A DNA stretch of 22,311 nt, from the IMG/VR virus record IMGVR_UViG_3300046459_000155, positions 1-22,311 of that record; one strand, given 5' to 3'. This document shows, in pieces, positions 609 to 22,311 of the stretch. Position numbers and translations under genes: made by a program. The notes under the pieces are model-generated. The model searched no databases and had not been told where the DNA came from. It worked only from the letters and a program-made list of their open reading frames with translations. Every line of letters begins with the position of its first letter. Position 1 is the stretch's first letter. Origin of the DNA: a virus.

Positions 609-803
609 GTGCGCGAGTTCGAGATAATCCGGGAACGGCATGGCCAAGCCCTGCGGGTCCTGGTCTGCAAACGGGCCGAGGACGACCCCGACGTCTGGGA
701 CCGGATCAACGAATTCCCGGCGACGAAACGCGGTGTCCAAGACGCGCGCGCCGAGCTCTACCGGCTCATGCGTCTCGACCAGGCGCTCGAGCGTGAGCCG
801 TGA
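609..803 (+). CDS. Hypothetical early protein, 64 aa
   Basis: The start is a GTG at 609, preceded by a purine-rich GAGGGGG Shine-Dalgarno-like stretch (about 595-601). The protein is 64 residues, charged and mostly helical in character (REFEIIRERH, DARAELYRLMRLDQALE), with one Cys and no membrane segment. Its stop at 801-803 overlaps the GTG of the replication gene at 800, so the two are probably translated together. No family is recognised. Position between bet, the C2H2 protein and the replication protein suggests an early accessory role. Confidence 0.65.
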   Translation: MREFEIIRERHGQALRVLVCKRAEDDPDVWDRINEFPATKRGVQDARAELYRLMRLDQALEREP

Positions 804-1402
804 GCATCCAGGCGATCGCGTGGGTCCTCGACCAGTCGCGGGCGCAGGGAATCGACCGGCTCGTGCTCATCGCGCTCGCGAATCACGCGAACGCCGAGAC
901 CGGCCGATGTGATCCGGGTCAACGGCGCATCGCGCAAGAGGCGAACTGTTCGCCCGGGATGGTGACGGTCTCGATTCGCCGTCTGGCCGAGCTCGGCGAG
1001 GTCGCGATCGAGGCGCCGGGTCAGGGTCGCGCGACCACGAAATACCACTTACCGTGGTTATCCACAGGATTCGGTAGCGCGCGACCTGGATCGCGCGCTA
1101 CGGAACCCGTAGCGCGCGATGGAGAGGCCGTAGCGCGCGATTTTGACCCCGTAGCGCGCGACCTGGATCGCGCGAAACCAGAACCTGTCTTAGACAGAAC
1201 CGCGCACGGCGCCGCCGATCCGGCTGACGCCGGCGGCGCCGTGGCTCCGAAGATCGTCACCCTCAGCGACGGGTCGCGATGGTGCCCCGACACCGGCGAG
1301 CTCATGGACCCCGAACCCGTCGAGGTCGCCGAGGTCGACGACGAGCTCGCATCCCGACGCCGGCACCCGGCGTCCGTTACCCGCATGGAGGCGCCACCGT
1401 GA
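800..1402 (+). CDS. Winged-helix replication initiator-like protein, 200 aa
   Basis: Residues 1-88 form a winged-helix region of the kind found in phage replication or DnaD-like proteins: an N-terminal helix (SIQAIAWVLDQ), then RIAQEANCSPGMVTVSIRRL as the helix-turn-helix and a wing near GQGRATTKYHLPW. The middle (about residues 88-127) is low-complexity and is encoded by an iteron array; it reads as seven-residue units containing VARD. The C-terminal third is acidic. Known precedent is lambda O, whose gene contains the origin that O binds. Here a DnaA box and 11-bp repeats sit inside the gene, so a replication-initiator role is inferred with fair confidence. It could instead be a regulator of the same fold. 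It starts at a GTG overlapping the upstream stop and is followed by a GTG overlap at 1399. Confidence 0.75.
   Translation: MSIQAIAWVLDQSRAQGIDRLVLIALANHANAETGRCDPGQRRIAQEANCSPGMVTVSIRRLAELGEVAIEAPGQGRATTKYHLPWLSTGFGSARPGSRATEPVARDGEAVARDFDPVARDLDRAKPEPVLDRTAHGAADPADAGGAVAPKIVTLSDGSRWCPDTGELMDPEPVEVAEVDDELASRRRHPASVTRMEAPP
1058..1066 (+). promoter_or_regulatory. Consensus DnaA box
   Basis: TTATCCACA, a perfect match to the classical DnaA box, lies 8 bp before the first iteron and inside the replication gene. It is embedded in a small inverted repeat GTGG-TTAT-CCAC. One 9-mer alone could occur by chance, but its placement beside the repeat array raises its weight. Confidence 0.55.
1074..1174. 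repeat. Iteron array, candidate replication origin
   Basis: The 11-mer GTAGCGCGCGA occurs at 1074-1084, 1109-1119, 1130-1140 and 1151-1161, and inverted at 1091-1101. The last three direct copies are spaced exactly 21 bp apart, two helical turns. A 24-bp identity links 1074-1097 and 1151-1174, yet those two copies are read in different codon phases (SARPGSRA versus VARDLDRA), so the conservation is at DNA level. A segment of about 45% GC follows at 1174-1200, low for this genome, and contains the inverted repeat CTGTCT-T-AGACAG at 1185-1197. The layout resembles lambda-type origins inside the initiator gene. Confidence 0.65.
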
Positions 1403-2004
1403 TTCGTGCCTTGATCGTCCTGGCCGTCATCGTCGTCGTCGCCCTGGTCGCCGGTCTCGTCGCCGAGCTCACCGCGGCGGATCCCGAGCACGCCAAGCCC
1501 GACCGACTCGAGCGTCCCAGTGGCGGACGTTTCCCAGGACCACCCGCACCGCCGGCCTTGAGCGGTGCGGACCCGTCGGCGACGGGTGAGCTCGTCGCCG
1601 TCGTCACCTACCTCGACGCACTCGAACAGGAACGACTCGAACGTGAACGCCAAGCCGTCGCCGCCTACCTCGACGCCATCGAGCAGACTCGCCTTGCCGA
1701 TGCCGCTGCAGCGGCGGCGCGCATGGCGCAAGCTCGGCCGACTCCAGGACCGCCGGCGACTAGCGGCGGAGCTAGCGGCCCACACTCGGACGCGTGGTGG
1801 TGGGGCGTCGCGGTCTGTGAGCAAGGCGGCCGGAACGACCCGTACTTCGGGTACTTCTCGTGGATGGACGGGAGCGCGGCCGGCATGACCTGGGACCAAC
1901 AAGTCGCCAAGTCCAACGACCTGTTGCGACGCGCCGGTCGCGAGGTCGGACCGTGGGCCGCGTCATGTGTCGCCGCCGGCTACCGCGCAAGCCCGGGAGG
2001 ATGA
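1399..2004 (+). CDS. Membrane-anchored lysozyme-like (Rpf/transglycosylase-type) protein, 201 aa
   Basis: Residues 4-23 are a strong hydrophobic segment (LIVLAVIVVVALVAGLV), a membrane anchor or signal. A Pro-rich stretch follows, then a helical region with an internal duplication (YLDALEQERL at 71-80 and YLDAIEQTRL at 90-99). Residues 130-201 resemble the small lysozyme-like domain of actinobacteria: W-G-V-A-V-C140-E141-Q-G-G, then GRNDPYFGYF and GPWAASC190. E141 matches the catalytic Glu position of CESGG-type domains, and C140/C190 could form a disulfide. It should therefore act on peptidoglycan outside the membrane. It sits in the early region, far from the endolysin, so it may serve DNA entry, exclusion or auxiliary lysis; this is unresolved. 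The start is a GTG overlapping the upstream stop. Confidence 0.7.
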   Translation: MIRALIVLAVIVVVALVAGLVAELTAADPEHAKPDRLERPSGGRFPGPPAPPALSGADPSATGELVAVVTYLDALEQERLERERQAVAAYLDAIEQTRLADAAAAAARMAQARPTPGPPATSGGASGPHSDAWWWGVAVCEQGGRNDPYFGYFSWMDGSAAGMTWDQQVAKSNDLLRRAGREVGPWAASCVAAGYRASPGG

Positions 2005-19853: not shown

Positions 19854-19970
19854 ATGGACGATGACGACCCATGGCGCCTCTGGCACGAGGCGCTGATCTG
19901 TCTCTACCTGGCGCTCGCGATGTTCGGCATCGGCGCCGCGATCGTGTTCGTCTGGTCGGTCCTCACCTGA
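19854..19970 (+). CDS. Single-span membrane protein of the lysis cassette, 38 aa
   Basis: The ATG at 19854 follows the holin stop with no gap. The 38-residue product is acidic at the start (MDDDDPWRLWHE) and then has one hydrophobic segment (ALICLYLALAMFGIGAAIVF) ending VWSVLT. With the two-span protein before it, this looks like a holin/antiholin or accessory lysis pair. Codon use and tight spacing support a real gene although it is very short. It ends one base before the convergent integrase stop, so the two opposing units meet with no intergenic terminator space. Confidence 0.6.
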   Translation: MDDDDPWRLWHEALICLYLALAMFGIGAAIVFVWSVLT

Positions 19971-19971
19971 G

Positions 19972-20841
19972 CTAGGCGGCGTCGTAGGCGCGCCCTTCCA
20001 TCGCGTCGCGGAGCCGGCCGAGCGACGCGCGTCGGAGATAGATCGCGGTCGTGGCGAGCTGACGATGGCCGAGCATGTCCTGGACGGCCCGGAGGTCTTT
20101 GGATTGCTCGAGGACGTCGCTGGCGGCGGTGTGACGCAGCGCATGAGCCGAGACGCCATCACGGGCGACGAGCTTGATCCCCGCGGCGCGCATCCATTCG
20201 CTGACCATTCCCGAGATCGTGTCCGGACGCAGCGCGCGCGGGGTCCGGTAGGAACGAATCAACGGCCCCCGCGGTGTCGGCCACTCGCGCAGGTACTCGG
20301 CGAGAGCGCGCGTGACATCGGCGACGACGGGCAGCTCCCGGTCGCGGGAGCCTTTCCCGTGCACTAACAGGACACCGGCACGGCGGGACCAGTCCTCGAC
20401 GTGGAGGCGGGCGACTTCACTGCACCGCAGTCCGAGCCCGACTTGGAGCCACACGATCGCCCGCGCGCGGGCGTCGGGGCACACGTCCAACAGCATGGCG
20501 ACCTGGTCACGATCAAGCGCCCGTGGAACCGCATCGGGCACCTTGATGCGTTCGACGTCGTCGGTCGGGTTCGTCGCGATGACGTGCTGGCGGACCAGCC
20601 AGTGCGAGAAGCCTCTCAGCGCACTGAGGTCACCCCGGCGGGTGGCTGCAGTCAGGTAACCGCGGGATTCGAGCCACGCTTCGATGTCGTCGGACTGGAG
20701 CTCTCGGAGTGGTTGGTCGCCGTAGAACAGGGCGAAGCCGCGCAGACTCGACCGGTAGTTGCGTGCAGTCATCGGGTGCATCTGGTGACGCCGCACCCGT
20801 TCGGAAAGCCAGGCTTCTGCGTATTCGAGCATGTTTGTCAT
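19972..20841 (-). CDS. int: Tyrosine integrase, short arm-less type, 289 aa
   Basis: This site-specific recombinase integrates the phage into the host chromosome. All catalytic residues are present: Arg139 (GLGLRCSEVARL), Lys163 (HGKGSRDREL), His233 and Arg236 (HALRHTAASD), His259 (LGHRQLATTAIYL) and Tyr268. The protein begins directly with the SAM-like core-binding domain (EYAEAWLSERV, MTARNYRSSLRGF); no separate arm-type DNA-binding domain precedes it, as in Brujita-type integrases. It ends GRAYDAA, an ssrA-like non-polar tail. It lies 11 bases after the repressor on the same strand, so both are probably on one leftward message. No excisionase is evident. Confidence 0.93.
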   Translation of the reverse strand: MTNMLEYAEAWLSERVRRHQMHPMTARNYRSSLRGFALFYGDQPLRELQSDDIEAWLESRGYLTAATRRGDLSALRGFSHWLVRQHVIATNPTDDVERIKVPDAVPRALDRDQVAMLLDVCPDARARAIVWLQVGLGLRCSEVARLHVEDWSRRAGVLLVHGKGSRDRELPVVADVTRALAEYLREWPTPRGPLIRSYRTPRALRPDTISGMVSEWMRAAGIKLVARDGVSAHALRHTAASDVLEQSKDLRAVQDMLGHRQLATTAIYLRRASLGRLRDAMEGRAYDAA

Positions 20842-20852
20842 GCCCGTGGACG

Positions 20853-21209
20853 CTATGCCGCTTGCGCGAATGGCCGTAGTTCACCCGCCGTAAACCATGC
20901 GTTCTTCGGTCTACGTCCTCGCTTGATCATCCCGAGCAACGCGGCGGGCACGTCATCGGGGTCGAGGTCGAGATCGGCGGGGTCGACGCCGTAGATCACG
21001 CATGCGATGTACGCGGTGCCGCGCGCGCTGCGGTTCGGTGGCGGGCCTTCGCGTTTCTCCATCCGGCTCAATGCCGACGCTGACGTGAGCTTGTAGCGCG
21101 AGACCGCTTCCGCGGCGACCTCGAGCTTGTAGCCGGCGACGTCTTCGCGGGCGCGGCGGAACTTCGATCCCCACGGTTCCGGGGGTAGGGGCAATGGACG
21201 TCCAGCCAT
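20853..21209 (-). CDS. Immunity repressor, HTH, 118 aa
   Basis: Residues 15-62 form a helix-turn-helix region of the actinophage immunity-repressor type (KFRRAREDVAG, LEVAAEAVSRY, SASALSRMEKREGPP), followed by AYIACVIYGVDPADLDL, a characteristic phrase of this group. It should keep lytic promoters off in the prophage. The ATG at 21209 is chosen over the in-frame ATG at 21218 because TAATAT (21222-21217, minus strand) forms a -10 box that would place the transcript start at the 21209 ATG, giving a leaderless message. The C-terminus (WFTAGELRPFAQAA) ends in two alanines. The gene is transcribed toward integrase and diverges from the Cro-like gene, the layout of integration-dependent immunity systems. 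Confidence 0.8.
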   Translation of the reverse strand: MAGRPLPLPPEPWGSKFRRAREDVAGYKLEVAAEAVSRYKLTSASALSRMEKREGPPPNRSARGTAYIACVIYGVDPADLDLDPDDVPAALLGMIKRGRRPKNAWFTAGELRPFAQAA

Positions 21210-21275
21210 GCGCCACATATTACCTGCGCCATCTATTGCACGCCAGCCATGCCGTGTGGTTGACTAGGCGCCCAT
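21210..21275. promoter_or_regulatory. Switch region: divergent promoters and operator-like repeats
   Basis: The 66 bp between repressor and Cro-like gene must hold both promoters. Leftward, TAATAT at 21222-21217 is a good -10; no clear -35 is seen. Rightward, TTGCAC at 21236-21241 could be a -35, with a poor -10. TGCGCCA occurs at 21209-21215 and again at 21225-21231, 16 bp apart, with a related GCACGCCA at 21238-21245. These are candidate operators for repressor and Cro. The Cro-like ATG at 21276 also lacks a Shine-Dalgarno. Confidence 0.5.
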
Positions 21276-21497
21276 ATGGCAACCATCCCACCTACCAAAA
21301 CCGTCGGCGAACGGATCCGCGAGGTTCGACAGTCCCGCGGTTGGAGCCAAGAACGCCTCGCGGTCGAAGCCGGCATCTACAGCCGCACTGTGCAACGCAT
21401 CGAAAGCGGCGAGGACTTCACCTTCGGGAGCCTGACGTCCATCGCACGCGCGCTCGACGTGGGGCCGGCCGACCTGCTCGAGGACCACGCGTCGTGA
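21276..21497 (+). CDS. Cro-like Xre-family regulator, 73 aa
   Basis: This is a small DNA-binding protein with a complete Xre helix-turn-helix from about residue 10 to 65: VGERIREVRQSRGWSQERLA, then VEAGIYSRTVQRIESGEDFT and SIARALDVGPADLL. It is the first gene of the rightward unit and diverges from the repressor, so the Cro role, shutting down repressor transcription and tuning early genes, is the natural reading. No dimerisation or cleavage domain follows. The ATG has no Shine-Dalgarno, so translation may be leaderless. Its stop overlaps the GTG of the next gene. Confidence 0.82.
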   Translation: MATIPPTKTVGERIREVRQSRGWSQERLAVEAGIYSRTVQRIESGEDFTFGSLTSIARALDVGPADLLEDHAS

Positions 21498-21688: not shown

Positions 21689-22311
21689 GTGTCCCGGCGC
21701 GTACCGCGGCGCCGCCGCGGGTGGTGGACCGGTTCGAGCAACTGATCGCGGTGCGCGAGCAACTGGCGCCGAAAGCATCGGACCGCGAGCTCGCGCTGTT
21801 CGCGCAGGTGTGCACGAACCTCGACCTGAACCCGTTCGCCGATCAGATCGTCCTCGTTCCCCGGTGGGACGGCCGGGTCGGACGTGAGGTCCACCGGCAT
21901 CAGGTGACCGTCGCCGGCCGGCGTGCGATCGCCGAGCGGACCGGCGACCTGATCGGGATCCAGGGTCCGGAATGGTGCGGGCCGCGCAACGCGCGCGGCG
22001 AGCTCGCATGGCTCGAGGTCTGGGACGACGACGTCCCGCCGTACTGCGCGCGTGTGTTCGTGCACCGGCGCGGGTGGGTCTCGCCGGCGAACGGCACCGC
22101 GAAATGGTCGGAGTTCGTCGTCACGAACCGGGACGGCCGGCCGGCGCCGCTGTGGGCGCGGATGCCGTCGCACATGCTCGGCAAGGTCGCCGAATCCCTG
22201 GCGTTGCGGCGGGCGTTCCCGGACGTGATCACCGGCGACGTCGTCGGCGCCTACGTGGGACCCGACGCGGTCGATCTCGCCGAGCTCCACGAAACCGACC
22301 CGGTCAGTGTC
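21685..22311 (+). CDS. bet: Bet/RecT-family recombinase, N-terminal part (continues at base 2)
   Basis: The start is a GTG overlapping the upstream stop. 209 codons lie before the contig end, and the frame continues exactly at base 2 after removal of the 127-bp overlap (total 313 residues). The sequence follows actinobacterial RecT/Bet proteins: ELALFAQVCTNLDLNPFADQ, the strand-turn HQVTVAGRRAIAERTGDLIG, GPEWCGP, WLEVWDDDVPPYCARVFVHR, and LWARMPSHMLGKVAESLALR. The protein anneals single strands for recombination-dependent replication. No partner exonuclease or SSB gene is recognisable in the genome, so host functions may supply them. Confidence 0.9.
   Translation, partial: MSVPARTAAPPRVVDRFEQLIAVREQLAPKASDRELALFAQVCTNLDLNPFADQIVLVPRWDGRVGREVHRHQVTVAGRRAIAERTGDLIGIQGPEWCGPRNARGELAWLEVWDDDVPPYCARVFVHRRGWVSPANGTAKWSEFVVTNRDGRPAPLWARMPSHMLGKVAESLALRRAFPDVITGDVVGAYVGPDAVDLAELHETDPVSV
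22185..22311. repeat. Right copy of terminal overlap (circular contig)
   Basis: This is identical to bases 1-127. The unique genome therefore ends at 22184. The bet gene must be annotated as one gene across the origin of the circle and not as two partial genes. Confidence 0.93.

Follow-up and report, generated by a model that had tools for sequence, protein, structure and literature searches.

Does the repressor gene of this virus contain the site at which the virus integrates? In integration-dependent immunity systems attP lies in the repressor gene (rep), the viral form of the repressor is destroyed via a tag of two C-terminal alanines, and the integrase (int) is usually, though not always, tagged as well. 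The same systems use a core-only attP, lack an evident directionality factor and possess integrases without an arm-type domain (PMC4557955, PMC9262239). Their gene arrangement, co-directional and adjacent rep and int genes with a divergent cro, was also present in the DNA examined here. In our view the locus is likely to serve a temperate phage as an integration-dependent immunity switch, with attP inside rep and probably an actinobacterium as host.

The window, i.e. the whole stretch of 22,311 nucleotides that was analysed, is an IMG/VR virus record. Its first 127 bases are repeated directly as its last 127 bases (1-127 = 22185-22311). The window thus represents the entire circularised genome (22,184 bp), so that attP, wherever it is, has to fall within it. 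As retrieved, the record carried no completeness flag despite the terminal repeat. A rightward gene run codes for RecT (across the join), an O-like replication protein, HNH, terminase, portal, protease, capsid, tape measure, tail genes and endolysin. It is followed by the leftward int-rep pair and then by the divergent cro. The best matches of the terminase, though distant, were in Streptomyces and other phages, which makes an actinobacterial host likely. An early-region protein (1399-2004, plus strand) has an N-terminal membrane segment and a C-terminal part which looks like a lysozyme or transglycosylase (WWGVAVCEQGG...); it had no convincing Pfam match. The features at the int-rep-cro locus are:

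19854-19970, plus strand: small open reading frame of 38 amino acids, probable membrane protein; ends 1 bp from the int stop codon.
19972-20841, minus strand: int, tyrosine integrase of 289 amino acids with core-binding and catalytic domains, C-terminus GRAYDAA.
19975-19983, minus strand: codons for the C-terminal DAA of int, an extension past GR.Y, where the untagged relatives L007, L008 and L010 stop.
20842-20852: 11-bp gap between rep and int.
20853-21218, minus strand: rep, HTH repressor of 121 amino acids, C-terminus PFAQAA, with an HTH match and relatives in the contigs L002 and L083.
20856-20867, minus strand: codons for the C-terminal AQAA of rep, an ssrA-like tag.
20873-20901, minus strand: candidate attP core, CGCATGGTTTACGGCGGGTGAACTACGGC, coding for rep residues 107-115.
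21217-21222, minus strand: TAATAT, likely -10 element of a rep-int transcript that would be leaderless from ATG 21209.
21219-21275: rep-cro intergenic control region, 57 bp.
21276-21497, plus strand: cro, Cro-like HTH protein of 73 amino acids, heading the divergent early operon.

The original prediction, a leftward rep, a gap of 11 bp, a leftward int and a divergent Cro-like gene, was confirmed in all coordinates, as were the two-alanine ends of both leftward proteins (AQAA in rep, YDAA in int). In Pfam searches int matched Phage_integrase (4e-27) and a core-binding SAM-like domain (3e-9); the domains begin with the core-binding domain and an arm-type domain is absent. Cro matched HTH_3 (E 1e-10), and rep matched HTH_31 with an E of 1e-4, which is below the curated cut-off. 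An excisionase family was not detected by Pfam among the early open reading frames tested, and the 38-residue frame at 19854-19970 had no Pfam match. The AlphaFold model of rep, built on three sequences only, has a folded HTH domain at about residues 11-100 and a poorly predicted tail (101-121). The likely start of rep is ATG 21209, which results in a protein of 118 amino acids. TAATAT is located 7 nt upstream and the spacing is kept in L002 (TAATAT) and L083 (TAACAT); a leaderless rep-int transcript from this ATG is likely on these grounds. In the rep-cro region of the window no clear palindromic operator was recognised; the counterpart regions contain GCTCTTG-5-CAAGAGC in L002 and GACTTGCAAGTC in L083. 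Around int, free space is confined to 11 bp towards rep and 1 bp at the opposite end. Because the small frame comes this close to the stop codon of int, there is no intergenic room for an attP 3' of int.

Relatives of the module were present in IMG/VR. L002 (IMGVR_UViG_3300047408_000103) has an intact cro-rep-int module with a 66% identical int; its rep ends with LVAA and its int with YLAA. In L003 (int 44% identical) a different small protein which ends with QVAA overlaps an int ending with NGAA. The third, L083 (IMGVR_UViG_3300036791_000747), was retrieved by the core pattern. There, int is missing save for the last ~35 codons, which form an in-frame fusion with rep (753-1193, minus strand). 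The junction is located just past the candidate core and the fusion still ends with YLAA. This is either a natural deletion or an assembly error. Rep of the window is 42-49% identical to those of L002 and L083. It had no relatives in phage records, and a rep query against viral contigs gave no match. Int matches in phage records were distant only, below ~35% identity. An integrase tree grouped the window with L002, L003 and L004-L006 in one supported clade, to which Charlie, Brujita, Bunker and GRU3 did not belong. This bore out the claim that the lineage differs from that of BPs and Brujita. Six virus contigs of 16-18 kb (L015, L016, L022, L023, L035, L037) carry an AA-ending integrase, 30-34% identical to that of the window, near the contig edge, as expected for integrated prophages of this type.

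How unusual are the alanine ends? Among 187 proteins of three actinophage genomes only five (2.7%) terminate with two alanines. In the window both module proteins do, and likewise in L002 and L003, which suggests more than chance. The integrases of the outgroup L007, L008 and L010 stop exactly at GREY or GRSY; the tagged ones append DAA (window), LAA (L002) or NGAA (L003) past GR.Y. The integrases of L004-L006 have a longer added tail, which ends with RVVA. In the virus form of rep the two alanines are a sequence feature that is conserved as AQAA in the window, LVAA in L002 and YLAA in L083. Probably, the tags act as degrons.

A common rep-int module could look similar. Then attP would be elsewhere, rep would be alike in virus and prophage, and the alanine ends would be coincidental or only set protein turnover. 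Rep-int pairs with a divergent cro are indeed frequent in phages without a switch, e.g. in Gordonia phage Tarzan, which has 143 bp between rep and int and a T-arm motif downstream of rep; nor was an att junction found for the window. However, double alanine ends are rare and recur in two relatives, the neighbouring genes leave int next to no intergenic space, and in this complete genome the sole DNA-conserved block near int resides inside rep. We therefore regard an ordinary module as unlikely.

This block, the candidate core, comprises 29 bp (20873-20901) and falls inside the interval in which the original prediction had placed the junction (20853-20950). The window shares 27/29 bases with L002 and with L083, and L002 and L083 are identical (29/29). 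Elsewhere in rep, the best 29-mer in the comparisons with the window reached 21/29. For shared residues the codons in the core were identical in 6/6, 6/6 and 8/8 cases compared with a background of ~45%. Equally conserved 29-mers do occur elsewhere between these genomes, but most of them are located in recT and in structural genes that are strongly conserved, and not in a protein that has diverged to the degree of rep. In the core, imperfect inverted arms, TGGTTTA and TGAACTA, flank CGGCGG. In length and symmetry the core resembles a site for two protomers of a tyrosine recombinase, and would suit an armless integrase that acts on a core-only site. Together with its conservation at the DNA level and the lack of other space, these two traits point to this block as attP. 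Apart from the window, the core was seen in two relatives only, of which one, L083, is without most of int. Searches of viral contigs with half-core patterns returned extra matches; with no module nearby these were taken as chance and discarded as further sites.

Two other explanations of the block were considered. It may be a regulatory DNA element, i.e. an internal int promoter, an operator or an RNA element, in which case the tags may still be degrons. Its position 30-60 bp upstream of the int start would be suitable, and DNA conservation alone does not reveal the binder. Yet length and dyad suit a core-type recombinase site, a second copy, as a repeated operator would have, was absent from the genome, and Rfam, a weak test, returned no match. 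We rate a regulatory element as very unlikely. The notion that the block reflects protein-level constraint, with AW(F/V)TA(G/D)ELR as a functional C-terminal motif and codon agreement by chance, is hardly credible: A107, W108, T110, A111, E113, L114 and R115 are invariant in all three repressors, but when codons were drawn at random from the genome's own usage 27/29 identity was reached in 1 of 1,500 trials, and the rare codons CTA (1% of Leu) and GCA (8% of Ala) are common to all three.

Returning to the block as attP, a host site was sought. In 84,980 prokaryote species genomes neither the exact 22-base core pattern nor, by alignment, a related integrase was found. Against plasmids and phages blastn with the core yielded chance-level matches only. 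Hence attB, attL, attR or a lysogen were not found in the genome, plasmid and phage searches. The failed exact search with 22 bases would fit a short common core at a non-tRNA site. A scan for the T-arm motif of tRNAs was negative in the window, L002 and L003, and positive in Charlie, Brujita and GRU3. Rfam detected no RNA family in the module, but also none in the Charlie control despite its tRNA-derived attP; it was thus uninformative and the tRNA question was decided on the motif scan. By this measure the locus does not appear to belong to the subgroup with a tRNA-derived attP, although attP may still derive from another part of a tRNA. This counts against the switch, as attP is mostly tRNA-derived in the known systems.

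How does the locus compare with those systems? The mycobacteriophages BPs, Brujita and Charlie (clusters G, I, N and P) similarly have a leftward int-rep pair, a divergent cro, a small HTH repressor with an AA tag, in several of them such a tag on int as well, and an armless tyrosine integrase. For their attP, a location in the 3' portion of rep has been demonstrated; for that of the window it is a prediction (PMC4557955, PMC9262239). Differences are that their integrases belong to another clade and that their attP consists of the 3' end of a tRNA in antisense orientation, with the T-arm motif visible in Charlie and Brujita. The Gordonia cluster CW phages GRU3 and GMA5 and the Bifidobacterium prophages Bb423phi2 and 689b-1 share small genomes of ~18 kb and an attP close to the rep 3' end, and integration removes a short tagged tail from the repressor, which amounts to 18 residues in the Bifidobacterium prophages (PMC5559632, PMC6109161). 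Unlike the site predicted here, their attB is in a tRNA, and the GRU3 integrase, ~33% identical to that of the window, is in another clade. In GRU3 (KR053197; L088, ~1490-1670) the rep 3' end, together with its tRNA-derived attP, is directly repeated and thus occurs in two tandem copies before int. The M. abscessus prophages MabC, MabN and MabO (attB-12, -13 and -14) may be alike in that their attB, which is known, is outside of tRNA genes with common cores of 3-25 bp; yet their repressors lack the AA terminus (PMC8092301). Because of these reports we dropped the apparent non-tRNA site as a novelty.

The original reading of the locus as a switch of the BPs/Brujita type was thus supported in part, by gene order, alanine ends, the armless integrase, the lack of a detectable excisionase and the core in rep; a tRNA-derived site was not seen. 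The different phage lineage was correct as well, but phages other than mycobacteriophages had already been found to use the mechanism (PMC5559632, PMC6109161). The terminal repeat, the conserved core in rep and the 1-bp spacing at the far end of int had not been part of the original prediction.

The switch might operate as follows. Rep and int would be co-transcribed leftward from a promoter before rep, and cro would lead the divergent early operon. The viral repressor would be made with its C-terminal AA tag and be degraded, and the integrase likewise. Surviving integrase, if sufficient, would recombine the core-only attP at the 3' end of rep with the host site and part rep from its last ~10 codons. 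The prophage repressor would then be shorter, untagged and stable, and would shut off the early promoter. A cut at the core should leave DNA binding intact because residues 107-115 map outside the confidently folded HTH domain of the AlphaFold model, which would be kept. This truncated repressor would then confer immunity.

Integration-dependent immunity, non-tRNA cases included, has already been published; new is the distantly related lineage. Possibly the switch evolved separately, with an armless Xer-like integrase lineage, a degron gained as a tail of 3-4 residues and a non-tRNA site of 28-29 bp in a rep without known relatives in sequenced phages, and in L083 the int deletion with a tagged tail on rep would then leave a phage unable to form a stable lysogen; but we rather doubt this scenario. 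The proposed attP is short and precise and thus directly testable. If the assignment is right, one more lineage of small phages, a distant one, has evolved or acquired the switch, with a different integrase clade and a different repressor. This would support the view that integration-dependent immunity is an easily reached design.
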